IMG/VR virus record: IMGVR_UViG_3300034418_006083
Span: 1 to 25,596 of that record
DNA length: 25,596 nucleotides
Reading direction: 5' to 3' (one strand)
Source of the DNA: a virus
Under the pieces are notes generated by a model. That model was not told the DNA's origin and made no database searches. It saw only the letters and a program-made list of their open reading frames with translations. The translations under genes and the position numbers were made by a program. Of this stretch, positions 6,193-21,094 are shown one piece after another. Each line of letters opens with the position of its first letter. Within the stretch, counting starts at the first letter, position 1.

Positions 6193-6465
6193 TTACCACT
6201 TCACTTTATCTGCCCAATACGCAGCAGACATTTTGCCTTTACTGATATTCTTCGCATGGCGGGCCTTAAAGCTTTTCTGTCTCGCTTTTCCAGCAGCAGT
6301 CTTAGGACTTTTACCCGCACCACTCACGCCTTGTTGCCCGAACCGAATCAACTTCGTCTTGTCGCCTTCTTTCGCAAGGACAGCATGGCTCTTCTTCGGG
6401 TGGCTAGGGGTTCGCTTTGGCTTATTGAAGCCTGCAAACTTTTCACCATTTCGCTCAACTGCCAT
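6193..6465 (-). CDS. Conserved basic phage protein of unknown function
   Basis: The 90-residue protein is strongly basic (K and R through the whole length) with no acidic cluster and no membrane segment. The N-terminal motif ERNGEKF-x-G-x-NKPKRTPSHP and the C-terminal motif FKARHAKNI-x-KGKMSAAYWA recur, in my recollection, in small proteins of many phages, with no assigned function. The conserved Arg-His and Tyr-Trp at the C-terminus suggest nucleic-acid binding. The ATG overlaps the last base of the upstream gene's stop (6465), and the 33-residue basic gene follows at once. The pair probably acts together, perhaps as packaged DNA-binding proteins. The role is inferred only. Confidence 0.72.
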   Translation of the reverse strand: MAVERNGEKFAGFNKPKRTPSHPKKSHAVLAKEGDKTKLIRFGQQGVSGAGKSPKTAAGKARQKSFKARHAKNISKGKMSAAYWADKVKW

Positions 6466-7364: not shown

Positions 7365-8570
7365 TTAGGAAACGCAAGCCGTGGTGCAACCAGTAGGATC
7401 GCAACGCAAGTGAGCAAACGCGACACCGCGCCAAGTCTCACCGGGCATAGATCCATTGGCCAACTGCATACGATGGTAGACCACCGTTCCATCAGGGTTA
7501 CATGTGCGATCGAGGATGTTCTTCAACTGCACAGCACCGGTAAAATTCACCGGGTCAAACCGGAAATCAGGATGCGGATTAGTAGGAGGCCGAGGAATCA
7601 GCGAAGTAAACACTTCAGGATCGAACCGGAAGGACTCCTCAATTGCAGCGGTCTTCCAGCTAGAGTTGACAACAGCTTCTTGACCACGAGTTGCATTGCT
7701 ACCCAGTGCAAATGCTGCAATCTCAGTGTAGGTCCCACCTGCACAGCTAAACCGCCGTGGGTAAGGATCTGCCAAGAACACCACATCGCCATAGCTATGA
7801 GACAACCCGAAACCACGAATCAACATGTTCTTGTCGTTCGAATACCGAATATCCTCTCGAATATCAGCATTCTGACGAGTGATATTCCCACGAGTCTCAT
7901 TCGAAACGATCATGATTCCCAGAGGAGAACCACCAGCACCCCGCAAGAGTGCATCAGCGCCCGCTCCATCGCGCATCAAGTCGATGTTGTATCGATCGAT
8001 AATGGCCATGTGCAACGGATGCGTTGGACAAGTACTTGGATAAGTGGTGGCCAAGTTATCACTGGAAGTGGCAGCCGAGCCACAGTCGTCAACAACAACC
8101 TTCGTCTGGCAGAGGCGGAAATACTCGTGTCGATACTTGATTTCCCACAGCATTCTGCTATAATCGCCAAGAACACCAGCAACGCTGGTCAATTGATTCC
8201 GCAAGTCGAAGGCAGGCATTGTATCAATGTTACAAATGTCAGGACCTTCTCGTGCCACACGCTCCAGGTTGAAGTTACGAGTCGTAGAGGCGATGCTGAT
8301 CTTCTCACTAGGAGGCAGACAGCTGCCGCCAGCCGCTCCATCAGGGATCACATCGCTAGGGTGAATTGAATTCCAGGTCGGATTCGCCTCAGTGGGTGCA
8401 CTGCGCTCATAGAACAGCACGTTGAGACTCGGCCCCATACCGTTTTCCCATTCGCCACGACGAACAAGATTCATCCAAAAGCTCCGCGCAAAAACGCGGC
8501 GCTGCATGATAGGCACAACAAACCTTCCGGTCTCATTGTGCAAGAAATTAGTTACTGCTTCGCAAGACAT
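7365..8570 (-). CDS. Major capsid protein
   Basis: The 401-residue protein is assigned as the major capsid protein from its length, its place downstream of portal and scaffold, its own promoter and structured leader, and a following high-expression small gene and terminator. The N-terminus is helical and rich in Arg (QRRVFARSFWMNLVRRGEWENG), a plausible N-arm. Later sequences such as VLGDYSRMLWEIKYRHEYFRL look like the long spine helix. The C-terminal third carries GVAFAHLRCDPTGCTTACV. It contains 11 cysteines, unusual for an HK97-fold capsid, three of them in the last 14 residues. No clear Shine-Dalgarno precedes the ATG; a hairpin ends seven bases upstream. No sequence motif alone proves the fold. 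Confidence 0.72.
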   Translation of the reverse strand: MSCEAVTNFLHNETGRFVVPIMQRRVFARSFWMNLVRRGEWENGMGPSLNVLFYERSAPTEANPTWNSIHPSDVIPDGAAGGSCLPPSEKISIASTTRNFNLERVAREGPDICNIDTMPAFDLRNQLTSVAGVLGDYSRMLWEIKYRHEYFRLCQTKVVVDDCGSAATSSDNLATTYPSTCPTHPLHMAIIDRYNIDLMRDGAGADALLRGAGGSPLGIMIVSNETRGNITRQNADIREDIRYSNDKNMLIRGFGLSHSYGDVVFLADPYPRRFSCAGGTYTEIAAFALGSNATRGQEAVVNSSWKTAAIEESFRFDPEVFTSLIPRPPTNPHPDFRFDPVNFTGAVQLKNILDRTCNPDGTVVYHRMQLANGSMPGETWRGVAFAHLRCDPTGCTTACVS

Positions 8571-8577
8571 ATTCTAA

Positions 8578-8745: not shown

Positions 8746-8776
8746 AAAAAAAGAGCACCTGCATTGCAGATGCTCT
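8746..8776 (-). terminator. Rho-independent terminator of the glycan island
   Basis: The minus strand has AGAGCA, one mismatch, CTGC, a 3-base loop, GCAG, one mismatch, TGCTCT and then seven T residues. It lies 22 bases after the stop of the FkbM-like gene and just before the capsid promoter, separating the two transcription units. Confidence 0.85.
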
Positions 8777-8798: not shown

Positions 8799-9275
8799 TT
8801 AATTAGTTCTTAGCCAGAAATCAACGCCCTCCACGTCAATCTTATGCGGATGGTAACCTCCAACCTTCAACACTCCCCTGATGCTATCCCGGTAATCACT
8901 CTGTCCTCCATGCTTCACAGTCACACAGTTGAACACTCTATGAGGTAGTATGTTAGCCAGGATGACGTCAGCTTGAGTGCTCACGTTCAAACTCAGGTAA
9001 CCAACTATCGAGTCCTCGAAATACTGATTCAGAAATCCGTCCCAATCAATGGCAAGTGGATCTTCGTTAACATAGTCACAAGTTCTCACTTGTCGGTAGG
9101 CTTCCTCGAATTCCCACCACTCTGAAACTGACACCCCCTCCCATCCGTTAAGGTCCAGGAGGTAGGTGTCGTTGGCTTCGATTGGGTCTTTTGTGCCAAC
9201 ATCGAGGTAGGACAAAGTGCTTGCGTGCTCCAATGTCCAGAGGTCTTTCTTTAGTGGGCTGTAGCTTTTTGGCAT
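8799..9275 (-). CDS. Degenerate FkbM-like methyltransferase-fold protein
   Basis: The 158-residue protein follows the plan of FkbM-type SAM methyltransferases: TLSYLDVGTKDPIEAN (21-35) in place of the DxGAxxG loop, YLLDLNGWEGVSV (38-50) matching the 'NGW-G-x-x-x-EP' strand, YLSLNVSTQADVIL (93-106) for the 'LSxDVEGxE' strand, and VDFWLR near the end. Several key residues differ: the glycine loop lacks its second Gly, and the usual Asp and Glu of the central strand are Asn97 and Ser99. It is also shorter than most family members. It may bind sugar or nucleotide without methylation, or be decaying. It is the last gene of the glycan island, starts inside the preceding membrane-protein gene (25-base overlap), and ends before a terminator. 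Confidence 0.6.
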   Translation of the reverse strand: MPKSYSPLKKDLWTLEHASTLSYLDVGTKDPIEANDTYLLDLNGWEGVSVSEWWEFEEAYRQVRTCDYVNEDPLAIDWDGFLNQYFEDSIVGYLSLNVSTQADVILANILPHRVFNCVTVKHGGQSDYRDSIRGVLKVGGYHPHKIDVEGVDFWLRTN

Positions 9276-9463
9276 TCTGCGAGTTCCCTTGAGATTCTGT
9301 CATTAACCTTTGATTGCTGTAGATAAGCGTTGCGGAATGTATCTCGTTCCATGCGTATCTCATGAAACGACAGACCGACATGACGACATCCTTCCCAGAC
9401 ACTTGCAAGCACAATCACGCTGAGACCTATGATAACTAGCTCATTGACATTCTTTTGTGTCAT
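9251..9463 (-). CDS. Small membrane protein with N-terminal anchor and helical tail
   Basis: The 70-residue protein has one hydrophobic segment (about residues 8-23, ELVIIGLSVIVLASVW) after a short polar N-terminus, then a charged helical region of about 45 residues (HEIRMERDTF to ISRELAECQK). This is the layout of a short inner-membrane spanin or of a membrane tether. It overlaps the metallophosphoesterase gene by ATGA and the FkbM-like gene by 25 bases, so all three are co-translated. Given neighbours that act on glycans or phosphate esters, it might recruit enzymes to the membrane. A spanin role is possible but no lipoprotein partner was found in the overlapping frames. Confidence 0.6.
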   Translation of the reverse strand: MTQKNVNELVIIGLSVIVLASVWEGCRHVGLSFHEIRMERDTFRNAYLQQSKVNDRISRELAECQKATAH

Positions 9464-10341
9464 AGAGCCATTTCAGGGGACATCTTAACCTGCATGATGC
9501 TCTGTCCTTTGAAAGAAATCCCAAAGTTAAGCCACCATCCACCCAGTGGCCTAGCGGCCCTGCCGTTTTCGACGTGAAAACCGTAAGGCTTGTGCTCACA
9601 CTTGTAAGCGCTCCCACGTAGAAAAAGCTGCTGACATCTCTCGATATTGCCATGCTTTGACAATCGAGTAACTACCCGATCATCCAGATTGCGCCTGTGG
9701 ATGTGACCAGAATAGTAAATGTCCGCAATGTAGTCATCGCGGGTTCGGCTGTTGTCGATCATCCCGGCAGTCACAGCACCTCCCCCACCATAACCGTGAT
9801 GATAATAGAGCGTTTTCTGTAATATCTGTGAACTGTTTGACTTCTGAAACTGTATCTGCACAAAGCCCCAGTAACCACCAATCATCGTCTTCAGGCCCTT
9901 AGCGTGCAAACGATCCTGCATCAACTGCATGAGATCCACTTCATGCCTCTTGGTGATAGCGGTCTCGTGATTGCCTGGTGTAATTAGGGCTAGGTTAGGG
10001 AATTCAGCATACCAATCAGCCGCTATTCGTGGAAGTTTAGAAAGGTAGTCATGGACCTGAAGCTCTGGTCGAACCTTGTCTTTAACGCCTCGCTTGTCCC
10101 ACTTACCACCCATACAGTCAAAGAGGTCTCCAAACCTGAAAATAGGAGCGTTCCGAGCTTGGGCTTCGCTGAGATGCTCCCGCAATACTTGCCGATTGCA
10201 GTCTGTGGAGTCCCAATGATCGTCACTACCTAACAGAATAGAACGTTCATCACCCGCCTTCAATCCTGTGAAGCGTAGTCGATGAACGTTCGGCGCGAGT
10301 TGTGTAAACTCCCAATTCAGGTTCTTTTTATCTGCTTTCAT
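9460..10341 (-). CDS. Calcineurin-like metallophosphoesterase
   Basis: The 293-residue enzyme carries the complete set of metallophosphoesterase motifs: GSDDH (38-42) for the first metal ligands, GDLFD (71-75), GNHE (123-126), YHHGYGG (180-186) and SGHIH (211-215). These bind two metal ions and hydrolyse phosphate mono- or diesters. The substrate may be DNA, a nucleotide or a phospho-sugar. The best start is the ATG at 10341: an upstream in-frame TTG (10347) is possible, but the ATG has AGAGG eight bases before it. The stop overlaps the membrane-protein start by ATGA. It lies in the glycan island, so removal of phosphate from a sugar donor or capsule component is plausible; a DNA-processing role is the alternative. 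Confidence 0.88.
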   Translation of the reverse strand: MKADKKNLNWEFTQLAPNVHRLRFTGLKAGDERSILLGSDDHWDSTDCNRQVLREHLSEAQARNAPIFRFGDLFDCMGGKWDKRGVKDKVRPELQVHDYLSKLPRIAADWYAEFPNLALITPGNHETAITKRHEVDLMQLMQDRLHAKGLKTMIGGYWGFVQIQFQKSNSSQILQKTLYYHHGYGGGGAVTAGMIDNSRTRDDYIADIYYSGHIHRRNLDDRVVTRLSKHGNIERCQQLFLRGSAYKCEHKPYGFHVENGRAARPLGGWWLNFGISFKGQSIMQVKMSPEMAL

Positions 10342-10343
10342 TG

Positions 10344-10952
10344 TCAACCTCTGACTCTGAAGATACCATAACTTTGCATAACTCTAACAACATCACACTT
10401 GTCATGCAGCTTCCGTTGTGCCTGCTTTGTGGTCTCCCAGTCCACATCATCAAACCAAATCTGGCCCCCTGGCCGCATCAGTGGCAAGTAATTCTCTACG
10501 TCCAGACAACTGACCTCCTCGCTATGGTTACCGTCAATGTGCAAAAAGTCAATGGCACCTAGTGATTTAATGTCACCTAATGCTCCTTCGCTGGTCTTCT
10601 TAAACACCGAGCAGTAGTCTTCAACATCTAATGCCCTTCGGTGATCGTAGAACAAGTCTTGAATGTGCGTGTGGTCTAAGCTTTCCCACCACTGAGCATT
10701 CGCGTCCTCGTCTGGTAACCCTTGCTTGCAAGGTTGTGGTGCCCAAGGCTCAATACCGTAAACATGACCGACCCCTAGCTCCTTCAATGCCAGCGCCACA
10801 GCAAACAATGAACGCCCTGCAAACACTCCAATCTCCACACACACACGAGGTTGATCGGAACGCACTCCCGCTATCATATCTAATGCCTTCTCGGTCTCAC
10901 ACCATCCGTGAAGCAGGGGCATATACTCTGTTGCGTATTTCTCAGGTGTCAT
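10344..10952 (-). CDS. Class I SAM-dependent methyltransferase (Methyltransf_24 type)
   Basis: The 202-residue protein shows the Rossmann methyltransferase order: VCVEIGVFAGRSLFAVALA (37-55) as the SAM-binding loop, VYGIEPW (64-70) with the acidic residue that holds the ribose, then FLHIDGNHSEEVSCLDVENY and LMRPGGQIWFDDVDW in the C-terminal half. The HIDGNHS and PGG-x-x-x-x-DD pattern is typical of cephalosporin-hydroxylase/Methyltransf_24-like enzymes that act on sugars or small molecules. A clear ribosome site (AGGTGAG) precedes the ATG, three bases after the GT25 stop. It most likely O-methylates a sugar made by the neighbouring glycosyltransferases. The acceptor is not known. Confidence 0.82.
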   Translation of the reverse strand: MTPEKYATEYMPLLHGWCETEKALDMIAGVRSDQPRVCVEIGVFAGRSLFAVALALKELGVGHVYGIEPWAPQPCKQGLPDEDANAQWWESLDHTHIQDLFYDHRRALDVEDYCSVFKKTSEGALGDIKSLGAIDFLHIDGNHSEEVSCLDVENYLPLMRPGGQIWFDDVDWETTKQAQRKLHDKCDVVRVMQSYGIFRVRG

Positions 10953-10955
10953 ACT

Positions 10956-11564
10956 CTACTCACCTAACTCTGTGTCTAATTGGTCCGCAATACGAGGCAC
11001 GAAGGCATACAGGTTTAAATGCTCGGCGCATTCAAAAATGATCTGCAAGTCAATCGGAGCCCATACTTTCTCACACTTCTCTATCAAAAAATCTAATGCT
11101 TTTCTACGAATGAAAAAGCAATGCGTGGTGAATGCTGTAGCGATTTTGCAAACATCGTAGTCATACTTTTCCTGGATGCACCAGAAACCTCCAGAGCAGC
11201 CCACATAAAACAGATCCCAGTCATCGGGCAGCACACTAAACGCTTGCTCTATCCTCTCAATAGGGTTATCAACATTGAACCTAACATCATCCTCCATGAC
11301 CAGATAGTGCTCAGCATCCGGCTCCATTGTTTGCAACGCCTTCCAAAGCGAAACTTGAGATATCACATTGCCAATACTCAATGCCCCGATGCTCCTAGCA
11401 CCTCCCTCGTCCTTGTCATACAAATGCTTAGTCTGCTCTAAACCTGTGATGTGACCGTCAAACCCCCAATACTTCACAGGATCAAACCCATGCCTCTCCA
11501 ACAACGAGCACGTTGCATTCAACTCTTCGGACAAACGCTTCAATCCTATGACATAGCACTTCAT
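10956..11564 (-). CDS. Glycosyltransferase family 25-like protein
   Basis: The 202-residue protein opens with CYVIGLKRLSEEL, the GT25 start (hydrophobic strand, then N/K-L-x-R). It continues with GALSIGNVISQVSLWKAL (60-77), matching the 'G-x-x-GC-x-x-SH-x-x-x-W' element, and HYLVMEDDVRF (86-96) with the acidic EDD metal/nucleotide site. THCFFIRRKAL is the 'A-Y-x-I-s-x-x-A' segment. GT25 enzymes add galactose or related sugars to lipo-oligosaccharide. The start overlaps the next upstream gene's stop by ATGA. A distant relative with ED-T in place of EDD is encoded at 13967-14575. It probably transfers a sugar to the phage or host glycan handled by this island. Confidence 0.78.
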   Translation of the reverse strand: MKCYVIGLKRLSEELNATCSLLERHGFDPVKYWGFDGHITGLEQTKHLYDKDEGGARSIGALSIGNVISQVSLWKALQTMEPDAEHYLVMEDDVRFNVDNPIERIEQAFSVLPDDWDLFYVGCSGGFWCIQEKYDYDVCKIATAFTTHCFFIRRKALDFLIEKCEKVWAPIDLQIIFECAEHLNLYAFVPRIADQLDTELGE

Positions 11565-12271
11565 GACTTGCCCATGGCTCGATACTTGTCCAAAACCTTC
11601 TGCTCATTAACTTCCCGCATATCCCAGGAAGGCCCATGATGTGTGTTCAAATACGCGATAGGTGCACCCAAATGCTCAACATGACTGTGAGCACACACCG
11701 CACAAATTTCCCCTATGCGTGCTAACTCCTCACGATAAAAAATATCAGGGTAGTAGATGCCCACTTCCTCATTCCAGCGAAAACCCTTGTCTCTCCGCAT
11801 CACAAAGTGATAACCACAGGGTTCCGTAGTCTCTAAGACACCTCCTACCTGTTCTTTAGCTTTGTCGTAATAACAGAAATACCCATCCCCATTTTCTCGA
11901 CTAACGCCTTGCACTGAATGATACTTGCCTGTAGCCAACAACGTTTTCAAAGGAGTCAACCAGTCTCCAAGGAAAAGTGTGTCTGCGATACTGAAAACCA
12001 CAAACTCACTTTCTGTCCTATCCAGCCCATAGTTGTAAATTTTATTCAGATTAAACTCATCATGATAATGCACCCAATCATAGCCTAATCTGTTAAGCTC
12101 TTCCCGCATGAGACTCGCAAACTTTGTGTGCTCCTTTGTGTGATTCTCATTGAAGATAGCAATTAGCTTAGAATCACATGTTGCCTTGTGGGACCTGAAA
12201 GCTGCCCTGTAAATCGCCAACTGCGCAGGGTGCTGGCAGACAATAGGCATTATTGTTACCGTGTCACTCAT
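11561..12271 (-). CDS. GT-A-type glycosyltransferase, paralogue of the next gene
   Basis: I chose the ATG at 12271, which overlaps the upstream stop as TAATG and gives 236 residues. A longer frame to 12298 exists, but only the shorter start aligns with its paralogue. The start MSDTVTIMPIV, then SHKAT (28-32), RLGYDWV, F-x-L-x-K-I-x-N-x-G (73-82) and FVVFSIADTLFLGDWL (90-105) match the neighbour at 12271-13023 in order and spacing. IAD (95-97) stands at the DxD-like metal-binding site. Near the end H-V-x-H and NTHHGPSWD may serve catalysis. This is a GT2-like inverting nucleotide-sugar transferase by fold; donor and acceptor are unknown. Confidence 0.72.
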   Translation of the reverse strand: MSDTVTIMPIVCQHPAQLAIYRAAFRSHKATCDSKLIAIFNENHTKEHTKFASLMREELNRLGYDWVHYHDEFNLNKIYNYGLDRTESEFVVFSIADTLFLGDWLTPLKTLLATGKYHSVQGVSRENGDGYFCYYDKAKEQVGGVLETTEPCGYHFVMRRDKGFRWNEEVGIYYPDIFYREELARIGEICAVCAHSHVEHLGAPIAYLNTHHGPSWDMREVNEQKVLDKYRAMGKS

Positions 12272-13023
12272 TACTTTGATACTAACACAGGTTCCCACTT
12301 AGCAAAAAACTTCATTCGATCACTATCCGCGATCTTATCCATCGAGGCCTTATTGAATTGTTTCACGAGCCCTTGAATCTGATGGTCAACCCGGCTAGCA
12401 TAGTTAATCCCTGCTTGCAGGTTGTTAAATCTCATCCAATACCAGTAATCGCAATCACACTCATATCTTTCAAACTGCTCATCGAACCTAAACTGGTCCT
12501 TCGTTCTAAAAAGAGAGCAATGCATTTGTGGTTGCTCCACGAGACGTGTTTCATGTAGCGGAACTGTTGTTGACCTGTAGTTGACACCCCTGTTAACCGC
12601 ACTGTAAGTGTAAGGGTGCACCGCACTGTAAGTGTAAGGGTGCATCGACAGATACTTACTGGCGTTGTCATTTTGTGCCCAAGCTTCCAACAAATAGTGC
12701 AACCAGAAGTTGTGGAACAGCACATCGGCATTCGAAAGAACGACGTATTCAAACCGCCCTTCTGCCATCTCATAGCCTCGGTTCCAGAACTTCGTCAACG
12801 AGAAGTCTTCTCTGCTAAAGTCATATTCGTAACCTAGCGACTCGACCAGCTTCTGCAACTCTTGCTGTAGGCCAGGGTCAGCGTCTTGATTGTCCAAACA
12901 AATCAAATGCGCCTGTGTTGTTGCTTTATGTGATTCCAAGGCCCGCTTACAGACGTTGAACATCTCGTGTGTCAACGCCGTTGCAGGCATAATAGTCACT
13001 GTTCTTTTTTCAGCTTCGCTCAT
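12271..13023 (-). CDS. GT-A-type glycosyltransferase with an internal 8-residue duplication
   Basis: The 250-residue protein aligns with its downstream neighbour: TVTIMPA, SHKAT (31-35), SLGYEYDF, F-S-L-T-K-F-W-N-R-G and YVVLSNADVLFHNFWL (93-108). NAD (98-100) occupies the metal-site position. The C-terminal half has DEQFERYECDCDYWYWMR (181-198), typical of GT2 enzymes where acidic residues bind the acceptor. HPYTYSAV occurs twice in tandem (128-135 and 136-143), coded by an exact 24-base repeat. The gene overlaps both neighbours by a single base (TAATG). It most likely adds a sugar in the same chain as its paralogue, with a different acceptor. Confidence 0.72.
   Translation of the reverse strand: MSEAEKRTVTIMPATALTHEMFNVCKRALESHKATTQAHLICLDNQDADPGLQQELQKLVESLGYEYDFSREDFSLTKFWNRGYEMAEGRFEYVVLSNADVLFHNFWLHYLLEAWAQNDNASKYLSMHPYTYSAVHPYTYSAVNRGVNYRSTTVPLHETRLVEQPQMHCSLFRTKDQFRFDEQFERYECDCDYWYWMRFNNLQAGINYASRVDHQIQGLVKQFNKASMDKIADSDRMKFFAKWEPVLVSK
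12596..12643 (-). repeat. Exact tandem duplication, 2 x 24 bp, inside a glycosyltransferase gene
   Basis: Bases 12596-12619 and 12620-12643 are identical (starting accgcactgtaagtg). The length is a multiple of three, so the frame is kept and HPYTYSAV is doubled in the protein. Perfect identity including silent positions points to a recent event such as replication slippage. Confidence 0.95.
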
Positions 13024-13970
13024 TACATCTCACTTAACGGTTGACCATCTCTCCAGTCATGCTCTGGCACTTGCGTCACCGGGAAGTCTTCACCAGCCAG
13101 AATACGTTCTCTCAACTCCCTTAAATCACACCCATCATAGTTATGACCCTTTGGTCGCCGCCCTTCTTTCACCCAATTCAACATTCGATGACTAGCATCA
13201 ATGGATCCCTGATACGGCTTAATGACTCGCTTGAATGGAGTGTCCTCATGATGGGCTTCTTCTGACTCGTAAGTCATCATACCCGGCACATAATACAGCA
13301 TGTAACCTTGCTGCTCCAGCATCATGCCACAACAGTAATCCTCCCCCGCCATACTGTCATTATCCTCGTCCCAGCCATTAACCTTCAGCAAAGCTTCAAT
13401 GGGTGCTCCAAAGCTACAGCCAAACGCCGAGTTACCTGTCACTCTTGTAGGGGCTGTATTGTTGAAGTGCCCTAGTCGGCTGTCTATTCCTTCTGGATAC
13501 TCCTCGGCATTAGTAATTTCACCCACCCTAACATCCAGATTTAGCATTTTCTTGTAGGCCCCACATGCTATCCACTTTCGCTCAATGGCAAAGTTCAGCC
13601 AATTCAACCAGCCCGGCAACAACACACTAAGGTCATCAACACACACAAGATACTCACCCTCGGCATAACACAACGCAGTATTCCGTGCGTTGCTCGCAGC
13701 AAACCAATCTTGATTTGTCAATCGATGCGGACCTTGCCACACTGTTGGCTTAGGTGGCACATGCACAATGTCACAATGTGCCATCTTCTTGAACTCAGCT
13801 TTCCGGTTAACAATTTGAGTGGTGCCCCACTGGTGACCCTTCTGAGCATAGAAATCGACAACGACCAACTTAATCCCGCTGTAATCATCCCCACACTCTC
13901 TATGCAAAGAATCAAAGAACCACCTAATCCTTGGGTTCTTCCTGTTGGTCATGTAGGCAATCGTGATCAT
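13023..13970 (-). CDS. GT2-like glycosyltransferase
   Basis: The best start is ATG 13970, which overlaps the upstream stop by ATGA and gives 315 residues beginning MITIAYMTNRKNPRI. The frame is open further upstream, but that would overlap the preceding gene by about 170 bases. Residues 90-121 hold FAASNARNTALCYAEGEY and then VCVDDLSVLLPGWL, the GT2 pattern with the DD metal site at 112-113. GWDEDNDSMAGEDYCCGMML (199-218) matches the GWDE-x-x-x-x-x-xED catalytic segment of polysaccharide synthases and galactosyltransferases. The final 60 residues are basic. This is the most canonical transferase of the island and may extend a polysaccharide. Donor sugar cannot be told from sequence. Confidence 0.82.
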   Translation of the reverse strand: MITIAYMTNRKNPRIRWFFDSLHRECGDDYSGIKLVVVDFYAQKGHQWGTTQIVNRKAEFKKMAHCDIVHVPPKPTVWQGPHRLTNQDWFAASNARNTALCYAEGEYLVCVDDLSVLLPGWLNWLNFAIERKWIACGAYKKMLNLDVRVGEITNAEEYPEGIDSRLGHFNNTAPTRVTGNSAFGCSFGAPIEALLKVNGWDEDNDSMAGEDYCCGMMLEQQGYMLYYVPGMMTYESEEAHHEDTPFKRVIKPYQGSIDASHRMLNWVKEGRRPKGHNYDGCDLRELRERILAGEDFPVTQVPEHDWRDGQPLSEM

Positions 13971-14575
13971 TTTGCTAGTCGAGGCACCGTAATATAGTGG
14001 TTCAGAAACGGGTAGATCCTTTGCAAGAGCATGACGTCGAGAGGCCGGTCCACTGGTCTCAGCATAGCTACTGCTTTTCGTGCTGCGTCTCGTGTCCAGT
14101 AAATTGCCCCAGTCTGAAATGGATAACGGTAGCATCTCGCAAAACTGTCGTTTACCTTCTCATACCTACCATCTTTGTCGTCCGTGTAGTAATACTGAAG
14201 CTGAACAACATCCGTGTCAGCCGGTAGGTTCTCCTCACTATCTTGCCACACTTTCTGGAAGTTATCAATCAGCCTCACAGTATCCTCCAACATGAAAAAC
14301 TTCTCATGACCCTCAGCTAAAGCAGCCGCCAATGCTGACCTATAAGACAAAAAGTGGCCCACCACCGTATTGTGGATATACTGCCCTGCACCAAACTCAT
14401 CGTCTTGATACGGATTTGTTGCCCTCAGCCCTATTGTCTCACCCTGTATCCCCGAGACATACCTAGGCTTCAAACCCTGCTCTTGTTCCAAGTGCTGAAC
14501 ACACGATTCCCGCCGTTTGCGCTCTTCATCGTAGACAATGCAGTAGACTGGAGGAAGCTCTTTGGTTTTTTTCAT
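13967..14575 (-). CDS. GT25-like glycosyltransferase with altered metal site
   Basis: The 202-residue protein has the GT25 frame: VYCIVYDEERKRRESCVQHL (10-29), a central G-x-x-x-x-x-x-SYRSAL (73-82) and FFMLEDTVRL (93-102), where GT25 enzymes carry ED-D or ED-x. Here Thr99 replaces the last acidic residue. GAIYWTRDAARKAV matches the 'G-x-x-Y-x-x-s-x-x-g-A' segment, followed by RPLDVMLLQRI, the usual 'P-x-D-x-x-l' end. Its relative at 10956-11564 keeps EDD. It overlaps the next GT2 gene by ATGA. It may be active with other ligands or be specialised; sequence alone does not decide. Confidence 0.68.
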   Translation of the reverse strand: MKKTKELPPVYCIVYDEERKRRESCVQHLEQEQGLKPRYVSGIQGETIGLRATNPYQDDEFGAGQYIHNTVVGHFLSYRSALAAALAEGHEKFFMLEDTVRLIDNFQKVWQDSEENLPADTDVVQLQYYYTDDKDGRYEKVNDSFARCYRYPFQTGAIYWTRDAARKAVAMLRPVDRPLDVMLLQRIYPFLNHYITVPRLAK

Positions 14576-14586
14576 CCCAGTTGTTT

Positions 14587-14751
14587 TTATTGAAGTATTA
14601 CCAATCGATCAATGCTACCGTCCATACGTTCACCTTTAACAGATACAATCGAGGTCACCTCGCTACTTTTTAAAGATCCAAGCACTACCGGAGCATCTTG
14701 AAATTCAAACTCCAATCCCTGCAAATCATCAATTAATTCTTCAACTGTCAT
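14587..14751 (-). CDS. Small acidic protein (54 residues)
   Basis: The frame begins at ATG 14751 and ends at TAA 14589-14587. The start overlaps the stop of the GT/GH130-like fusion gene by ATGA, and the next ATG (14575) lies 11 bases after its stop, so it fills a gap in an otherwise continuous operon. The protein starts MTVEELIDDLQGLEFEFQD, a short acidic helix, followed by beta-type stretches (APVVLGSL, VTSIVSVKGE, RLVILQ). I do not recognise it. Overall composition and operon placement favour a true gene. It could be a small partner or regulator of the neighbouring enzymes. Confidence 0.7.
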   Translation of the reverse strand: MTVEELIDDLQGLEFEFQDAPVVLGSLKSSEVTSIVSVKGERMDGSIDRLVILQ

Positions 14752-16436
14752 AGTTTCTTCAACTTACCACCATCATGCACTGATTGCAACAGACCATCTA
14801 AGTCTTTCTCTGGGATTTTTACCCAACCGCAGTTCTCATCGTTCACTCCGAACACCACCAGAAAACTGTCATCTTGTCTAATAGCCCCACCAGGGAAAAT
14901 CACCAACGGCCCCTCGAACACTCTAGGGTCATGCTCGCTGCCAATCAACAAAGGCTCATGCGTCATACGGAGAGGCTCGAATGGGGGCTTAGCCTCAAAC
15001 GTGTAGGCCCCCATATAGTAGCGTCTTTTGTTACCTCGCCACCTCTCACTACTATGAAAAAACGACAAATACTCACTATCATTCAAACGAATTGGCGGTG
15101 TGCCTCCTCGAATCTCCCCGTATTCCCACACCATCTTTGTGCGAGCTTTCCATTGCATCTCAACACTATGGCCTTTCCCTGCTTTGAAAGTTAAATGCGG
15201 AGAAGGGCTGTAAACACAATGCCATCCATCATGGTCAAACCAAGTCCAATTCTTCTCATGGCGACTACCCGATTCTGGTTTACTTGCATTGCCCCCATAG
15301 TTGGTCTCTGCCACGACTTCAAACTTTGACCAGTCCTCATCCAGCTTCACGAGAGCTTGTCGAATCGTCCACCTGTGATCTCGGACCCATGTCGCAAAAG
15401 ACAGATACACTTGACCGTCCTTAATCATCACCCGTGGATCTTCCCAGTTCTCTTGGTCCCACCTTCGAGGAGGTCTCGGCGTTAACGACTCCGCAACTGT
15501 CATCGAGTCAGGTCTCACCCTCCAGATCACTAAATCACTGTGCTTGTCCCAGTAGCCCACACCATGCACTTTTGGGATACCAAACCGAAACCTTCTTGTG
15601 AACAACCACAACTTGCCGTCATATTCTGCAATAGCTGGGTTGAAGTAACACGTTTTCTCCCCATATGGAAACGCAAATATACCACAGGGCCAATCCGTTT
15701 GATCTAAAAAACTATCATACCGATCTTTCCTCACCTGTGTATCAAGTTCTCCAATGTCTCGCTTACCTAAGAAAACCTCCTGCTGCCTCCCATCACAACC
15801 CCTCAACAGACAGGCGTCAGGAAACTGGATCTTAATCTCTGAAAACCGAAAATTGGAGCCCTGGTCCACAATGATCTTGTCAGTGTGCCCAACATCCTTC
15901 ATGACATCAGGCCCCGCAAGCCTATCAAATGGTGCACTCTGGGCATACAAAGCCCCGGTATGCACTAGATACTTTGAAATCTCAGACGGCCAGATCCCAC
16001 ACCTATCCATATAGGCTTGAGGTAAGTGTGTTGTGCCATACACATAACCCACAAAAGTTTTCTTCAGCCGTGTTTTTTCATCAAACACATGATCGACCCA
16101 ATTTTGGATCAACGGACAAGCATCCTGCTCCCACCATAACCAACAGTCATAGCGATGGGCATAGTTCTCTTCTATGTGTCGTGCCGTGTGCTGCCAAATG
16201 AAGTTTTCTCTGGTGGGAAACTTTTGCAGCTTCTCCCATTCATCGTGCTTGAAGTAACTGACAGTCTCGAAGTAAGTCCTCGCAACTTTATCAACACTTG
16301 ACCTAGACAAGTTATCGTCATGCACTACCAACAAATGGTGCTTACTCTTTGCACCATATTTAAGGGCTACCTCCAGATTCAACCGGAAGTAGCCCAAATT
16401 CTCGCTATCTAATGATGTAACAACCAGCTGGGTCAT
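14748..16436 (-). CDS. Fusion of a GT-A-like domain and a GH130-like five-bladed propeller
   Basis: The 562-residue protein has two parts. Residues 1-235 look like a glycosyltransferase A-fold domain: TQLVVTSLDSENLGYFRLNL, HHLLVVHDD and YDCWLWWEQDACPLIQNW, where E-Q-D (103-105) sits at the metal site. Residues about 250-545 form a propeller like GH130 phosphorylases and GH43/32 relatives: FNPAI, NWEDPRVM (330-337), NWTWFDHDGWHCVYSPSP, RGGTPPIRL (443-451), FFHSSERW (459-466), MGAYTFEAKPPFEPL and FPGGAIRQDDSFLVVFGVND. In GH130 the EDPR and R-x-x-HSS/YHG sites bind phosphate and sugar. It overlaps the scaffold stop by ATGA and is the first gene of the island. It might both make and trim a mannose-type linkage. 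Confidence 0.72.
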   Translation of the reverse strand: MTQLVVTSLDSENLGYFRLNLEVALKYGAKSKHHLLVVHDDNLSRSSVDKVARTYFETVSYFKHDEWEKLQKFPTRENFIWQHTARHIEENYAHRYDCWLWWEQDACPLIQNWVDHVFDEKTRLKKTFVGYVYGTTHLPQAYMDRCGIWPSEISKYLVHTGALYAQSAPFDRLAGPDVMKDVGHTDKIIVDQGSNFRFSEIKIQFPDACLLRGCDGRQQEVFLGKRDIGELDTQVRKDRYDSFLDQTDWPCGIFAFPYGEKTCYFNPAIAEYDGKLWLFTRRFRFGIPKVHGVGYWDKHSDLVIWRVRPDSMTVAESLTPRPPRRWDQENWEDPRVMIKDGQVYLSFATWVRDHRWTIRQALVKLDEDWSKFEVVAETNYGGNASKPESGSRHEKNWTWFDHDGWHCVYSPSPHLTFKAGKGHSVEMQWKARTKMVWEYGEIRGGTPPIRLNDSEYLSFFHSSERWRGNKRRYYMGAYTFEAKPPFEPLRMTHEPLLIGSEHDPRVFEGPLVIFPGGAIRQDDSFLVVFGVNDENCGWVKIPEKDLDGLLQSVHDGGKLKKL

Positions 16437-17569
16437 TGGGCATTCTGAGCCGCACGCAGCCCGCTCATGAAGTCATTACTGTAACCCTTATCGTAGTAAT
16501 CCTTCTGCTTCAGGTCAGTCGCAGCGGGCTCTTTGACACCATTCCCCGGCACACTCGATTCAAACTTAGAGAGCTTCGCCTGAAGCTGCTCGATCTCGCT
16601 TTGCTGGCTCTGCACCAACTCAAACAACTGACCACTAGCCCCGACAGTTAGAGCAACCCTTGCTTCCTCCTCTGGCCCTAGATCCCCACTAATGACCCTC
16701 TTTGCCAACTCAATCGCCTCAGACGCTTTGCTGTTTCCAGCTTGATAGGCGAAGTATCCATCATCGCCATCTGCCTGAAGCTTTGCAAGGTGCTTGTCGA
16801 AGGCTGTTTGTCTGGCTTGTTGTTGTTGCTGTCTGGCTTGTTGTTGCTGTTGTGTGGTTTGTTCAATCCGTGCATCCCAATTCTGTCTCGCCGCTGCAAT
16901 CTCAGCCTGCTTACTGATGTCAATTTGTTCCAGTGTCGAAAGCGCCGCGTTAATCCTCCTCTGAGAACTGTTTGGCAACTCCTCAATTATCTTATCAATC
17001 TGTTGATCCCTCAACACACTAGAAGGCATCTCTAGCAGTTTGGCGAGCTCATCACCCCTATCTGCCGCTGCCAACTTAGCATTACGGATCGCTACATCGG
17101 CCTGAGTTTGATACTTGGAGTTGAATTCAGGATCACGCTCAATGGCAGTCTCTCTCAGCGCCTGCTTGTATTCCTCGTTCTGTTTCCGTAGCTGTTCCAA
17201 CTCCTCATTCGGGCTACTTGAAAGCTCCTGGATCTTCTGCTCCAACGCCAACTTCTCAGCATTATGCTTTTCCTTTAGTGACTTCCAGTCTTGTGCCTTC
17301 TTAGGTAGATTCTGGAGGTCAGGAATCTCAACAGGATTAGTTGAATCCTCCGTATTATGCTCCTCTGTCGTCTGCTCTTGTTGCTCTTGTTGCTCTTGCT
17401 GCTGTTGCTCAGACTTCGGCAAATCTTGCTGCCGAGCGGCTTCCAAATCACTTGGATTAAAAGAATCCGGCAATGGGCCTTCTGCTTCCCGTTCTAGCCG
17501 GGACTGTGCGCCTGCCTTCATAGCATCTACTGGCACAGTCGGGGTGGGTTCACTGGTCGGTTGACTCAT
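16433..17569 (-). CDS. Capsid scaffolding protein
   Basis: The 378-residue protein is very hydrophilic, highly helical and low in aromatic residues. Residues 1-90 are disordered and rich in Pro, Glu and Gln with E-Q-Q repeats. Residues 95-150 and 330-350 are coiled coil (LEQKIQELSSSPNEELEQL; SQQSEIEQLQAKLSKFESS). Residues 240-255 are a Gln-rich tract coded by imperfect CAA/CAG runs. It ends with a small aromatic, basic tail (DYYDKGYSNDFMSGLRAAQ), as in scaffolds whose C-terminus binds the capsid shell. It follows the portal and precedes the capsid gene, apart from the inserted island. It is expected to be lost or cleaved during head maturation. No protease domain is visible. Confidence 0.82.
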   Translation of the reverse strand: MSQPTSEPTPTVPVDAMKAGAQSRLEREAEGPLPDSFNPSDLEAARQQDLPKSEQQQQEQQEQQEQTTEEHNTEDSTNPVEIPDLQNLPKKAQDWKSLKEKHNAEKLALEQKIQELSSSPNEELEQLRKQNEEYKQALRETAIERDPEFNSKYQTQADVAIRNAKLAAADRGDELAKLLEMPSSVLRDQQIDKIIEELPNSSQRRINAALSTLEQIDISKQAEIAAARQNWDARIEQTTQQQQQARQQQQQARQTAFDKHLAKLQADGDDGYFAYQAGNSKASEAIELAKRVISGDLGPEEEARVALTVGASGQLFELVQSQQSEIEQLQAKLSKFESSVPGNGVKEPAATDLKQKDYYDKGYSNDFMSGLRAAQNAQ

Positions 17570-17996: not shown

Positions 17997-20183
17997 CTAT
18001 TGTCCTTGCGTCAAGGTGTCTTGCTGAAATCGCACAGCCTTCTGTGTCACATCTTGTTCAAACTTCGCCTGCTTGTGCTGAAGTTGCTGCTGGGTTTTCA
18101 TATCCCTCTCCTGCATCTTAGACGCAGCCTCCTGCATCTGCAATTGCTGCTCAAAACTCAACTGCTGGGCCTGCTGCTGCTGTTTTTGCTGCTCTGCCAC
18201 AGCCTGTTGAACCACCCTTGATCCTTGCTCAAGTTGCTGTAGGCCTTGCGCCATTTGCTGCTGAACAGTTGGCCTAGCAATTTGCGACACATGCTCAGCC
18301 GTATGAGGAATCGCCAACTGCAAAAAGATTGCAGCACTCGTAGGATCTGCACCTTGCTCTACCGCTTGCACAGCCTGAATCCCAGCCTGTAAATGCCTCA
18401 AGGCATGCACTTCATGGTCTTGCCCTTCAGCAATCAAAGGCGGAGCCCCTTGCTGCATGTCATTGTTCTCACGGGTTGCCTGCCAGTCGTCATTAGTCGG
18501 TATATTATTCCGATCTTCATCAGGAAAGTATCGACTCACCTTCTCGTAACCCGCAAACGCCGCAACATAATCCTGCTGATAGTTCTCCAAACCTCTCTGC
18601 CCCATAAATGGAACCATAGGGTTCAACGAGTTAACCGCTTGCTGCTTCATCACCGGAGAGCCATTCCCTATCGACCTCGTAGCAACAACCGCACACTCCT
18701 CGATCACATCCTGAATCTGTGCGTCACTCACCCCAGCATCCTTTAACTTCTTCTGAAACTTCTTGGCTGACTTGACACCAGGCCCGCTGCCTGCCAAATT
18801 CTTCTTAGTAGCTCGTCTGAAGATCTCAAAAAACAACACATCGAGCTGCGAGATAAATCGATTAACCGCACTGTTTGTCAAAACAGTCGCTTGATTGAAG
18901 CGGATGCTTGCAGCCGTAGCAGATTCTGGGTTCCCTGCTGGCTTCTCAAACTGAGGTCGATAAATGCCAGTATTCACATCTAGCTGCCGGTCAAACGCCC
19001 CACTCACAGCCAAACCGGACTCCACGTCACCACTAATCTGCCCTGTAGCAGCCTCATATCCCTGTGGAATCACCGTTACCCCATCACCCACTTGCACTAA
19101 CCCGGTCGCAGCCGTATTGCTACCCACCTGATTTAACACAATGTTCTGGCGCATCAAGGTATTGTCGGCAACCTTGTTCGCAATCCTGTCCTTCACCTGC
19201 ATGAAAGACACGATTCGCTTTCCGAGACCCTCCAGTGCATTAATACTCCCACTGTTGACCTCGAACACAAACGGTGCTAGTATCTCACGTATGGACTCAG
19301 AGATGCGGTTGCGACTATAAAGCCAACCATTATCCCCTAAATTCTTCCGTTCTGGTGTGTTTACTTCCCTCTCCAGCCGTGACTCTGGTCCTGTGTAACC
19401 CTTCTCTGTGGTGTCCTCCTGCACTGGCACCACCATCCGATGCCACCAACCATCTTCTAACCAAAACATCGAAGCACATTTGACCGTCTTCGCCATAGTA
19501 TGGGGCTCCACTACATTATCATTGAGCCGCTTCTGGATCGCCATCGGGTCGTCCTCTTCCCAATCAGGCACAGCCAACTTCATGGCCTCCATCACAGCCT
19601 CTTTATTCCACCCCTTACCCTCGCCCTTATTGACAAAGTTCCACAACTGCGACACTGTAAAACTGTGTTCTAGTGCAAACTCCTCCCAGGTCTCGGGATC
19701 AATGCTATAGCCATCAGGAAAATAGACCTTATTCCAATCGATGTGGCAGAAACGCCAATCCTCTGTGGGCCACCAGAAAAATCCCTTATTGAAGCCTACA
19801 AAATCATCTAGCATGAGCCACACATTAGCATCCATGCTCTTCCAATCCTTCATCATGCGGTCAAACTCGACCGTCATTTTCTCGCTAGCATCATTAGCGG
19901 ACAACCCTTCTGGGTTATCCTTCACAGTCTGAATCGTGGCATACGTCCGATTGCTGCTGAAAAGCTCATAATACGGCGTTTTGGCACTGTCCTTCCTACT
20001 AGCTCCCTCCAGAGTGTTGAAATTTGCCTGCCAATCGGTGCCCGCCGCCCGCTTCTTGTCCCTCCTAAACGGCGGATTCCCGTCAAACATGCCCTGAATG
20101 ACAGCAGCTTTCTGCAATCTAGGCTTCGCTGCCTCCTTCCACATGCAAAACTTAGCCTGTGCTTTACTCGCTGTCAGTTCCAT
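17997..20183 (-). CDS. Portal protein
   Basis: The 728-residue protein is assigned as portal by length (close to the 725-residue P22 portal), position between terminase and scaffold, and sequence type. The N-terminus is a helical clip/wing region (KEAAKPRLQKAAVIQGMF, then DWQANFNTLEG). A central region has FNKGFFWWPTEDWRFCHIDW and DWNKVYFPDGYSIDPETWEE, typical of wing domains. About residues 310-370 have ALEGLGKRIVSFMQVKDRIANKVADNTLMRQN, resembling the long stem/tunnel helix. The last 100 residues are a Gln-rich coiled coil, like the barrel of long portals, through which DNA passes. It ends at TAG 17999-17997. The small upstream gene overlaps its start by 10 bases. Confidence 0.85.
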   Translation of the reverse strand: MELTASKAQAKFCMWKEAAKPRLQKAAVIQGMFDGNPPFRRDKKRAAGTDWQANFNTLEGASRKDSAKTPYYELFSSNRTYATIQTVKDNPEGLSANDASEKMTVEFDRMMKDWKSMDANVWLMLDDFVGFNKGFFWWPTEDWRFCHIDWNKVYFPDGYSIDPETWEEFALEHSFTVSQLWNFVNKGEGKGWNKEAVMEAMKLAVPDWEEDDPMAIQKRLNDNVVEPHTMAKTVKCASMFWLEDGWWHRMVVPVQEDTTEKGYTGPESRLEREVNTPERKNLGDNGWLYSRNRISESIREILAPFVFEVNSGSINALEGLGKRIVSFMQVKDRIANKVADNTLMRQNIVLNQVGSNTAATGLVQVGDGVTVIPQGYEAATGQISGDVESGLAVSGAFDRQLDVNTGIYRPQFEKPAGNPESATAASIRFNQATVLTNSAVNRFISQLDVLFFEIFRRATKKNLAGSGPGVKSAKKFQKKLKDAGVSDAQIQDVIEECAVVATRSIGNGSPVMKQQAVNSLNPMVPFMGQRGLENYQQDYVAAFAGYEKVSRYFPDEDRNNIPTNDDWQATRENNDMQQGAPPLIAEGQDHEVHALRHLQAGIQAVQAVEQGADPTSAAIFLQLAIPHTAEHVSQIARPTVQQQMAQGLQQLEQGSRVVQQAVAEQQKQQQQAQQLSFEQQLQMQEAASKMQERDMKTQQQLQHKQAKFEQDVTQKAVRFQQDTLTQGQ

Positions 20184-20389
20184 AGGATTCGACTTTCCTC
20201 TTGATTATCTCTTTGCTGCTCCATGAACACTTGCATTGCCACCGCCATGCTGTCCCAGTCCTCCACACTCCTCATAGGTGTTGCACTGATGATCCACTGC
20301 GTCTCTGTCTGGGCAGCTACCATAAAAGGCACACCCAAGTCTTGCATTTCCTCTAAAAGAGAATAGAATCTGACAATCTTACTGTCCAT
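20174..20389 (-). CDS. Small hypothetical protein upstream of the portal
   Basis: The 71-residue protein starts MDSKIVRFYSLLEEMQDL and has alternating helices and strands (VPFMVAAQTETQWIISATP, EDWDSMAVAMQVFMEQQ). It is mildly acidic with several Met and no Cys. It overlaps the zinc-protein gene upstream by 11 bases and the portal start by 10 bases, which supports a real gene. I do not recognise it, and no function is suggested by motif. Confidence 0.6.
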   Translation of the reverse strand: MDSKIVRFYSLLEEMQDLGVPFMVAAQTETQWIISATPMRSVEDWDSMAVAMQVFMEQQRDNQEESRILWN

Positions 20390-20999
20390 TTACCCAGCAA
20401 TGTGCTGGCAAGTCGTCTTTTATAGCCTGCGGCATGTTTTTTTGCAAGATTTCAGTAGGAACCCACACTTTCGCCTTCAAACTACACCCACAAGCCCTAC
20501 AAGCCTTCAGTTTATCCCCTTGAGATGTCTCACCCGGCGCAATTCTAGCAATCTGCTGCAACATCGCAGCCCTTGCACAACTCGTGCAACCTCCCGGCTC
20601 CTGATTCTCGACACACCCTACACAGATAGCAGCCCTCCTTTCTGCCTCCCCAGCATCAACACTAGCTCCACCCCCTGTAACCAACCAACTCCAGAGCGTT
20701 TTCGTCCCAGACACGATCTCATGCACAAACCTGTGCTGCTGCTTCTTGACAGGCTTCAATTCTGGCCCATCCGGCACACAATAGTCTGGCACATCCTTAC
20801 AAATCTGCTCCTCAACAAGCTCTCTCAGCCCAAAGGGCACATGAAAGTCATTGGCAACATAGTGCTTCTTGACATTCTCTATCAACTGCCCCTCTGTCGT
20901 GCCCACAATATAAGCACCTGTCTCCGGCACAGTATACCGCCAACCACCTCCAGCCGGGGCATTGGTCCTATTCGGGTAAAATCTAGGCTTATCACTCAT
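20379..20999 (-). CDS. Zinc-binding cysteine-rich protein next to the portal
   Basis: The ATG at 20999 is the best start (206 residues). A GTG nine bases upstream exists, but the ATG overlaps the stop of the preceding tiny gene as ATGA. The N-terminal half has a domain of about 60 residues (GGWRYTVPETGAYIVGTTEGQL, VKKHYVANDFHVP). The C-terminal half contains C126-x2-C129, C138-x2-C141, C167-x2-C170-x-C172 and a late Cys near 199. This spacing (CVGCVENQEPGGCTSC; CRACGCSLKAK) is the zinc-ribbon pattern found in phage proteins beside portal or terminase genes, where a metal-bound domain is thought to bind nucleic acid or protein. The exact role is unknown. Confidence 0.7.
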   Translation of the reverse strand: MSDKPRFYPNRTNAPAGGGWRYTVPETGAYIVGTTEGQLIENVKKHYVANDFHVPFGLRELVEEQICKDVPDYCVPDGPELKPVKKQQHRFVHEIVSGTKTLWSWLVTGGGASVDAGEAERRAAICVGCVENQEPGGCTSCARAAMLQQIARIAPGETSQGDKLKACRACGCSLKAKVWVPTEILQKNMPQAIKDDLPAHCWVNGQ

Positions 21000-21094
21000 A
21001 CACAACACCCAAAGTCATCATCGTCATCTAACCACCAATGTGCGGCCAACACAAGAGCACACGCACAAAGCGCCAATATCACGTAGAAAGTCAT
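20996..21094 (-). CDS. Tiny membrane peptide with acidic tail (32 residues)
   Basis: ATG 21094 opens a frame to TGA 20998-20996, which overlaps the ATG of the zinc-binding gene as ATGA. The first 20 residues (MTFYVILALCACALVLAAHW) form one membrane span. They are followed by WL, five Asp in a row (residues 23-27) and FGCCV. The five-Asp tail on the C-terminal side is striking. It begins one base after the stop of another tiny membrane peptide. Short size makes it statistically weak alone, but the chain of overlapping starts and stops supports it. Confidence 0.5.
   Translation of the reverse strand: MTFYVILALCACALVLAAHWWLDDDDDFGCCV

Follow-up and report, generated by a model that had tools for sequence, protein, structure and literature searches.

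A recurrent block of glycan-assembly genes among the head genes of an uncultured aquatic phage clade and its possible role in virion glycosylation

Glycosylation of phage virions is known from a few mycobacteriophages. According to a review (PMC12363180), gp110 of phage Che8 is essential for capsid glycosylation; mycobacteriophage virion glycosylation is treated both there and in PMC12619734. In chlorovirus PBCV-1, a tested case, soluble viral glycosyltransferases act on the capsid in the cytoplasm and viral O-methyltransferases cap the glycan (A064R, A061L; PMC9614988), and among aquatic phages the variable regions of pelagimyophages, which are large myophages, carry several glycosyltransferases, mostly GT8 (PMC7029224). 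Here we describe a block of eleven ORFs in a stretch of viral DNA (the window, i.e., positions 1-25,596 of IMG/VR record IMGVR_UViG_3300034418_006083, 25,596 nucleotides) that may represent a phage-encoded, late-expressed glycan assembly line. At roughly even odds (a probability of about 0.5), this block makes an O-methylated glycan that is most likely put on a head protein of the virion.

The block occupies positions 8799-16436 of the minus strand, between a scaffold-like gene and the gene for a HK97-fold major capsid protein (Table 1), and thus separates the two, as an earlier, preliminary description had it. Read from the coordinates, neighboring ORFs overlap at nine of the eleven junctions, including that of the scaffold with the first ORF, so the claim that overlaps link most of the genes and reach back to the scaffold gene holds as well. 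The start of the GT2-like gene was placed at the ATGA overlap instead of at the longest-ORF start (14135).

Table 1 Features of the glycan-assembly block and its surroundings, in order of transcription (junctions are with the preceding ORF)
Feature	Position	Strand	Junction	Basis or remarks
Portal-like protein	17997-20183	-		48 viral loci have a homologue lying between the terminase and scaffold genes; no library match
Scaffold-like protein	16433-17569	-		Acidic, glutamine-rich coiled coil; position and composition; opens the overlapping chain
GT-GH130 two-domain protein, 562 aa	14748-16436	-	4 nt overlap	GT-like ~1-240 plus GH130/GT108-like five-bladed propeller ~245-553
Small acidic ORF, 54 aa	14587-14751	-	4 nt overlap
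GT25-like glycosyltransferase a (GT25a)	13967-14575	-	11 nt gap	phrog_2835 glucosyltransferase E 2.4e-10; Pfam GT25 E 0.0028
GT2-like glycosyltransferase, 315 aa	13023-13970	-	4 nt overlap	Pfam GT2-group E 0.001-0.02
GT-A glycosyltransferase 1 (GT-A1)	12271-13023	-	1 nt overlap (TAATG)	Pfam GT2 E 0.00037
GT-A glycosyltransferase 2 (GT-A2)	11561-12271	-	1 nt overlap	Paralogue of GT-A1
GT25-like glycosyltransferase b (GT25b)	10956-11564	-	4 nt overlap	Motif EDD; phrog_2835 E 6.1e-9; Pfam GT25 E 0.0063
Class I SAM methyltransferase (Methyltransf_24)	10344-10952	-	3 nt gap	Pfam PF13578 E 1.9e-19
Calcineurin-like metallophosphoesterase	9460-10347	-	4 nt overlap	TTG start; phrog_7339 E 2.8e-10; motifs GDLFD, GNHE, GHIH
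Small protein, 70 aa	9251-9463	-	4 nt overlap	One predicted membrane helix (sequence)
FkbM-methyltransferase-like protein, 158 aa	8799-9275	-	25 nt overlap	Motif positions altered; 32-37% identical to L006/L008/L009 proteins
Intrinsic terminator after block	8752-8776	-		11-pair stem with T-run
Major capsid protein, HK97 fold, N4-like	7365-8570	-		AlphaFold pLDDT 75; possible acceptor

The block is probably transcribed late, together with the head genes. A strong terminator, already recognized in the preliminary description, closes the block (-21.8 kcal/mol, z -4.4, none of 200 shuffles being equally good). The capsid promoter placed after it found no support: the sole consensus match near the capsid start (TTCAGA-16-TAGAAT) ends at 8571, abutting the capsid ATG at 8570, so that a transcript from it would begin within the capsid gene, the match lacks conservation among relatives, and promoter-like matches in that region are at chance level (22 found vs. 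20.5 expected). The motif CTTAACTnTTTGT, conserved ahead of the capsid ATG, was considered as a repeated phage promoter and rejected, with one exact copy in the window and no telling excess of loose matches (14 vs. 8.0 expected, 3 of 100 shuffles having as many); among the fetched loci it recurs solely upstream of the capsid gene in close relatives. Rfam and PADLOC searches returned no matches.

Neither Pfam nor PHROGs assigned the capsid gene. Its predicted structure supports a HK97-fold major capsid protein, the best Foldseek match being the phage N4 capsid (9e99, E 1.4e-10) and the best 50 of 256 PDB matches at E ≤ 0.001 being capsids except for one lambda portal-vertex entry. The protein is 80-82% identical in four relatives, and homologues of the scaffold-like protein occupy the same place in relatives.

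A scan of IMG/VR for the GH130-like domain gave 149 relatives, and across this large clade the linkage with head genes recurs, a portal, scaffold or capsid gene lying at most 10 kb away in 31 of the 33 non-redundant GH130 clusters examined. The slot is portal-scaffold in one clade and scaffold-capsid in that of the window; a third clade is mostly block-less. Scaffold adjoins capsid in nine block-less relatives (L018, L025, L033, L034, L042, L052, L053, L055, and L056), as in Che8, in keeping with the earlier statement that the two are normally adjacent. The linkage of the block to head genes could reflect vertical inheritance within one virus clade. Judging from the median dN/dS (0.06-0.10 in block genes vs. 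0.05-0.09 in head genes), the block genes are under purifying selection, as the head genes are, and their ORFs are intact in dozens of related contigs. The synteny comparison proposed in the preliminary description revealed a block that recurs intact near head genes, and not one split or degraded; the block does lie between scaffold and capsid, but the term “inserted” used there has to be revised, as the block has long belonged to this clade and is no recent arrival in a single phage. Gene content varies between relatives, and the phosphoesterase, the membrane ORF and the altered FkbM-like protein are, among related loci, peculiar to the window virus, as might be expected of a useless passenger, yet with dN/dS near 0.1 and so many intact copies this explanation is scarcely credible.

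A megablast of the window against phages had no match, and tblastn against 50,697 phage records had none for the capsid, portal, GT2 and GT-GH130 proteins or for the portal and GH130 proteins of L105, so that cultured phages provide no named relative or host. Most proteins of this virus family are without a recognizable relative among these records. A portal profile searched against 84,980 bacterial and archaeal genomes matched solely an 8.9 kb contig in a Verrucomicrobia MAG, the binning of which may be wrong.

Glycan assembly by the block is well supported. The gene identities first proposed stood for the GH130-like domain, the Methyltransf_24 enzyme and the paralogous GT-A pair (33% identity over 104 aa, E 7e-13), but were weaker for the GT25, GT2 and FkbM-like proteins. 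Block ORFs of L005 and L008 share 41% and 36% identity with GT-A1 and GT-A2, respectively; inside the GT-A1 gene, two identical 24 bp units stand in tandem (12596-12644). GT25a and GT25b are also paralogues (25% identity, E 9e-10), the former reading EDT at the motif that is EDD in most relatives. In the window, the GT25 and GT2 assignments have weak Pfam matches (E 0.0004-0.05) and rest on the relatives, among which several GT25 proteins pass the Pfam cut-off (E 1e-23 to 9e-6, L006 and L008 included); the GT2-like protein has 19 viral relatives at 34-100% identity. In the FkbM-like protein, motif-like residues kept by relatives are altered: SQxGQD, DxGAS, DCDDD, and VEHD of L006, L008, and L009 read SPLKKD, DVGTK, NVSTQ, and VKHGG in the window. 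The window protein had no library match, and two of its relatives had no Pfam match either. The 70 aa membrane ORF matched nothing in Pfam or PHROGs, and in place of the small acidic ORF relatives carry one of 76-77 aa and of other sequence. Among cultured phages, the only relatives of the Methyltransf_24 enzyme are mycobacteriophage methyltransferases.

The GT-GH130 protein passes the Pfam cut-off for Glyco_hydro_130 (E 1.5e-8, 34.4 bits vs. 26). The fold matches (VIA) of its AlphaFold model (pLDDT 85) are filled by the propeller, the N-terminal GT-like domain being hardly sampled, and comprise GH130 phosphorylases (Z ~27; RaMP1, Z 27.5, rmsd 3.0 over 293 residues), a mannoside synthase (Z 25.8) and Leishmania GDP-Man mannosyltransferases (Z 22.2-22.6). 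EDP, KNW, RGG, and ND are invariant across 15 viral GH130-like relatives, and EDPR is conserved and aligns with the EDPR of 7fip; an Arg 19 residues past the Asp of the window protein is absent at that place in L003 and L004. The closest cellular homologue of the propeller among 289 Verrucomicrobiota genomes (E 2.9e-28) adjoins a Wzm/Wzt-like ABC exporter pair and a DegT-type sugar aminotransferase, and giant viruses have related propeller folds fused to glycan-building enzymes. Based on these fusions, on the polysaccharide locus of the cellular homologue and on the mannoside synthase and GDP-Man mannosyltransferases among the solved relatives, we infer that the propeller synthesizes rather than degrades. 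The closest folds, most named GH130 enzymes with structures being phosphorylases or hydrolases, would also suit a metabolic or depolymerizing cassette in which propeller and phosphoesterase degrade host storage or surface glycans; the same synthetic relatives and export locus, together with a propeller that is throughout fused to a GT domain or placed beside GT and methyltransferase genes, make this improbable.

We postulate that the soluble glycosyltransferases (two GT25-like, three GT2/GT-A-like, and one GT fused to the GH130/GT108-like propeller) would assemble a short oligosaccharide in the cytoplasm from sugar nucleotides of the host. Methyl caps would then be added by the Methyltransf_24 enzyme and, in relatives, also by methyltransferases of the FkbM or other types. 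No nucleotidyltransferase was found in 29 related records, whereas its control gave matches. The acceptor would most likely be a head protein from the same operon, virions then being released with a glycan coat. Since the enzyme families are those of the mycobacteriophage shell-glycosylation locus, the viruses carrying the block probably make sugar-coated particles. Che8 gp110, which passes Pfam GT25, matches the GT25 profile of the block (E 1.8e-9, 33.5 bits; best of 500 shuffles, 2.3 bits). Among the observations that count against this reading, the same profile matches a Burkholderia prophage GT25 at 1.2e-30, far above Che8 gp110, the glycosylation genes of Che8 are remote from its head genes, and the C-terminal character of the capsid fails to separate carriers from block-less relatives, their Ser/Thr contents, tried as a sign of glycosylation sites, overlapping. 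Virion decoration, as put forward in the preliminary description, has gained from the recurring head-linked block, the Che8 precedent and the lack, in 29 related records, of genes defining the two main alternatives; the acceptor would presumably be a virion protein, but the envelope may be the target instead.

In that case a host surface glycan would be modified late in infection, e.g., blocking superinfection or keeping progeny from sticking to debris, with host lipid-linked intermediates or lipopolysaccharide as substrates at the inner membrane. O-antigen and capsule loci often contain GT25, GT2, and FkbM enzymes, Methyltransf_24 and GT25 serve envelope glycans too, the cationic amphipathic segments with which sister-clade GH130-like proteins start would fit membrane work, as would the one-helix membrane ORF, the closest cellular propeller sits in a polysaccharide export locus, and the pectate-lyase fold of the window virus tailspike suggests a polysaccharide receptor. 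Host surface modification is also what the pelagimyophage authors favor for their glycosyltransferases (PMC7029224); however, most of those genes belong to the tail-fibre variable region, and the block, in contrast, stays among head genes. Moreover, GtrA, the Wzx-type flippase PF01943, the initiating sugar-phosphate transferase PF02397 and the WecA-type transferase PF00953 were each found in 0 of 29 related records, which may be fragments (control matches in 7, 13, 9, and 12 of 14, respectively), although host counterparts would be usable. On balance, we consider an envelope target less likely than a virion protein. T4-like hypermodification of phage DNA is the best-known role of phage glycosyltransferases, and the block methyltransferase has a weak match to a PHROG annotated as DNA methyltransferase. 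Nevertheless, with the thymidylate-synthase-type hydroxymethylase PF00303 in none of the 29 records (control matches in 9 of 14) and with six glycosyltransferases plus a propeller exceeding the needs of such systems, this role is very improbable; PF12851 (Tet/JBP-type) had no matches in related records, the control being likewise silent.

If the block decorates virions, glycosylation would be a standing trait of this widespread clade of uncultured phages, with a genetic tie to head assembly and an enzyme content that varies between close relatives with capsids ~80% identical. The coat may protect or shield the virion or help it adsorb to particles or hosts, with a bearing on phage persistence in water, sticking to particles or mucus, and avoiding recognition. 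The block is, in addition, a source of unstudied glycosyltransferases, including viral GH130/GT108-like enzymes.

Several known systems share parts of this design. Phage O-antigen seroconversion (gtr) clusters also contain glycosyltransferases, but together with the GtrA flippase that was not found here. GH130 phosphorylases, GT108 mannosyltransferases/phosphorylases and the mannoside synthase Uhgb_MS have the five-bladed propeller and EDPR-type motif of the viral protein, which differs in its low identity to them (10-19%), its KNW and RGG motifs and its fused GT domain, its activity being predicted. In Che8 (cluster F, Cheoctovirus), an unrelated siphovirus, gp108 (GT2 plus Methyltransf_24), gp109 (GT2-like) and gp110 (GT25; all by Pfam) are encoded, as in the block, by neighboring and partly overlapping genes, but these three lie at the right genome end, far from the adjacent scaffold and capsid genes, and are without a propeller domain; modification of the Che8 capsid was shown by others. 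PBCV-1 is a eukaryotic virus, and its glycosylation genes have not been reported to form a block within the head genes. We tentatively propose, as a possibility somewhat short of even odds, a phage counterpart of chlorovirus capsid glycosylation: virions of an aquatic clade would carry a complex, O-methylated glycan of the phages' own making, assembled by a diversifying set of enzymes that has long stayed among the head genes and in which a GT108-like propeller synthase is joined to another glycosyltransferase.

Eleven minus-strand ORFs run from 16436 down to 8799 in the ORF list of the window, between a scaffold-like gene and the major capsid gene, as the preliminary description had proposed. 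Once the starts of GT2 (13970) and GT-A2 (12271) are set at the overlap with the preceding gene instead of at the longest-ORF start, overlaps of 1, 4 or 25 nt are found at nine of the eleven junctions, including that between the scaffold and the first ORF, and gaps of 3 and 11 nt at the other two, which bears out the suggested chain of linked genes reaching the scaffold. The strongly folding terminator expected at the end of the block is also present, directly after the last ORF. The capsid promoter placed at this border is not supported: the match ends right before the ATG and lacks conservation. Next to the block follows a gene that encodes a capsid protein, by its predicted structure (AlphaFold model, pLDDT 75; first structural match, phage N4 capsids).

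Coordinates of the glycan-enzyme block, its borders and other genes of the window
Feature	Position	Strand	Remark
Collagen-like repeat protein, small membrane protein, lipoprotein	920-2822		after tailspike region
Small basic protein	6193-6465
Capsid gene	7365-8570	-	next gene after block
FkbM-like ORF	8799-9275	-	in block
Phosphoesterase	9460-10347	-	in block
Tandem repeat in GT-A1	12596-12644		in block
GT-GH130 fusion	14748-16436	-	largest block protein
Scaffold-like gene	16433-17569	-	upstream neighbour of block
Cysteine-rich protein	20379-21008		between terminase and portal
DUF5906 primase/helicase-like gene	22529-23869		between terminase and portal
Terminase gene	24849-25596		truncated by window end

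The methyltransferase and the GH130-like domain of the window pass curated Pfam cut-offs; its GT25-like and GT2-like proteins have weak Pfam matches and either pass PHROG glucosyltransferase thresholds or match strongly in relatives. The largest block protein is a fusion of a GT-like domain (ca. 240 residues) and a five-bladed propeller (AlphaFold model, pLDDT 85), the latter with structural-match Z scores of 27 to GH130 phosphorylases, 25.8 to a mannoside synthase and 22 to Leishmania GDP-mannose mannosyltransferases. Such a propeller could build or degrade glycans, and three lines favour building: in the gene orders of nearly all carriers it is fused to, or lies near, glycosyltransferases and methyltransferases; among 289 Verrucomicrobiota genomes, its nearest cellular homologue (E 2.9e-28; 2.2e-12 for the second best) has neighbours that, judged from their sequences, resemble an exporter pair of Wzm/Wzt type and an aminotransferase of DegT type; and its structural relatives in giant viruses occur as fusions with LicD, pyruvyl transferase and fucosyltransferase domains. 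Overall, we consider it very likely that the block assembles a glycan.

In IMG/VR, the portal alignment found 48 relatives, the GT2 alignment 19 and the GH130 alignment 149, of which 80 were kept. The synteny comparison proposed in the preliminary description, i.e., with relatives having and lacking the block, agrees with its linkage to head genes: when GH130 carriers were grouped at 95% identity, a portal, scaffold or capsid gene lay inside the fetched 10 kb flanks in 31 of 33 clusters (none in those of loci L069 and L081). Two orders recur, one with terminase, a zinc-finger-like protein, portal, glycan enzymes together with a GH130-like protein, and scaffold, and the other, as in the window, with scaffold, glycan enzymes and capsid. 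The related loci L006-L009, whose capsids are 80-82% identical to that of the window, share with it the GT-GH130, GT25, GT2, methyltransferase and FkbM-like genes, and differ from it in some other genes. On a portal tree the window and six other scaffold-capsid carriers form one group (support 99), its sister carries the block between portal and scaffold, and block-less viruses, with scaffold adjoining capsid, lie in a further clade; on this quick tree, with some row labels assigned by hand from gene orders, a minimum of five slot changes is needed. Median dN/dS (pairs with synonymous divergence < 1) was 0.096 (GH130), 0.060 (GT25) and, from three pairs each, 0.102 (methyltransferase) and 0.071 (GT2) in the block, compared with 0.055 (portal), 0.092 (scaffold), 0.075 (capsid) and 0.046 (terminase) outside it. 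To judge from these sequence comparisons, the block is retained for a function.

The naming of the last block ORF as FkbM-like stands in part: it is intact and has relatives in L006-L009, but the residues that its relatives have in common with FkbM-type motifs are altered in the window, so its product may have ceased to be a methyltransferase, a possible pseudoenzyme. None of the related loci has a counterpart of the phosphoesterase or of the membrane ORF. The sole cultured-phage relative of the phosphoesterase, in Rhodobacteraceae phage LS06-2018-MD07 (34%, E 7e-33), lies beside genes for endolysin and replication rather than beside head genes. GT-A1 contains a perfect 2 x 24 bp tandem repeat that duplicates HPYTYSAV; the near-identical contig L002 stops before it. 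Elsewhere, the DUF5906 gene occupies the same place in loci L012 and L077, the cysteine-rich protein is conserved in 97 related ORFs, without a clear library match, and the terminase frame is longer in L002 (441 aa). The small basic protein (phrog_7595, E 2.2e-38) matches part of a 'minor head protein and DNA pilot' family and among related loci has a counterpart in L080 alone. The trio after the tailspike region, conserved in L006-L009, possibly represents lysis genes. A contig binned in a Verrucomicrobia MAG (L151, 1-8881) shows the gene order of the window, with portal, scaffold, a fusion protein of GT-like type and more GT-like genes, which hints weakly at a Verrucomicrobia host.

Searches of 29 related records, run alongside positive controls that responded, found no gene for an initiating transferase, a flippase, GtrA, a nucleotidyltransferase or a hydroxymethylase; thus, the enzymes are expected to draw on sugar nucleotides of the host and to act on an acceptor reachable from the cytoplasm, which would be either a protein of the virion or a lipid-linked intermediate of the host. 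The block GT25 profile matches gp110 of mycobacteriophage Che8 (33.5 bits, E 1.8e-9; ≤ 2.3 bits for 500 shuffled copies), and among cultured phages only mycobacteriophage methyltransferases match that of the window (E 3e-4 to 6e-4). The capsid of chlorovirus PBCV-1 can be glycosylated by soluble glycosyltransferases and methyltransferases of the virus itself, independently of host machinery (PMC9614988). The Che8 parallel, the methyltransferase kinship, the head-gene linkage and this precedent favour a virion protein as acceptor. However, GT25 and Methyltransf_24 are not virion-specific families, a Burkholderia prophage GT25 outscores Che8 gp110 against the block profile, the sister clade has amphipathic cationic N-termini compatible with work at a membrane, and the head-gene linkage may partly reflect shared descent. 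On this balance, we give decoration of the virion, the role suggested in the preliminary description, a probability of about 0.5, and regard modification of the host envelope instead as the less likely outcome.

Phage virion glycosylation is itself already known. In the open-licence papers searched, this block is undescribed; three aspects are new: the scale, with the block being standard in a clade that has no cultured members; its location among the head genes; and the enzymes of GH130/GT108-like type. The best-tested phage parallel is Che8, whose neighbouring gp108-110 are all annotated as glycosyltransferases and of which gp110, in the account of PMC12363180 (citing Freeman et al. 2023), is reported to be essential for capsid glycosylation. 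By Pfam, gp108 is GT2 plus Methyltransf_24, gp109 GT2 and gp110 GT25, families that are all present in the block.
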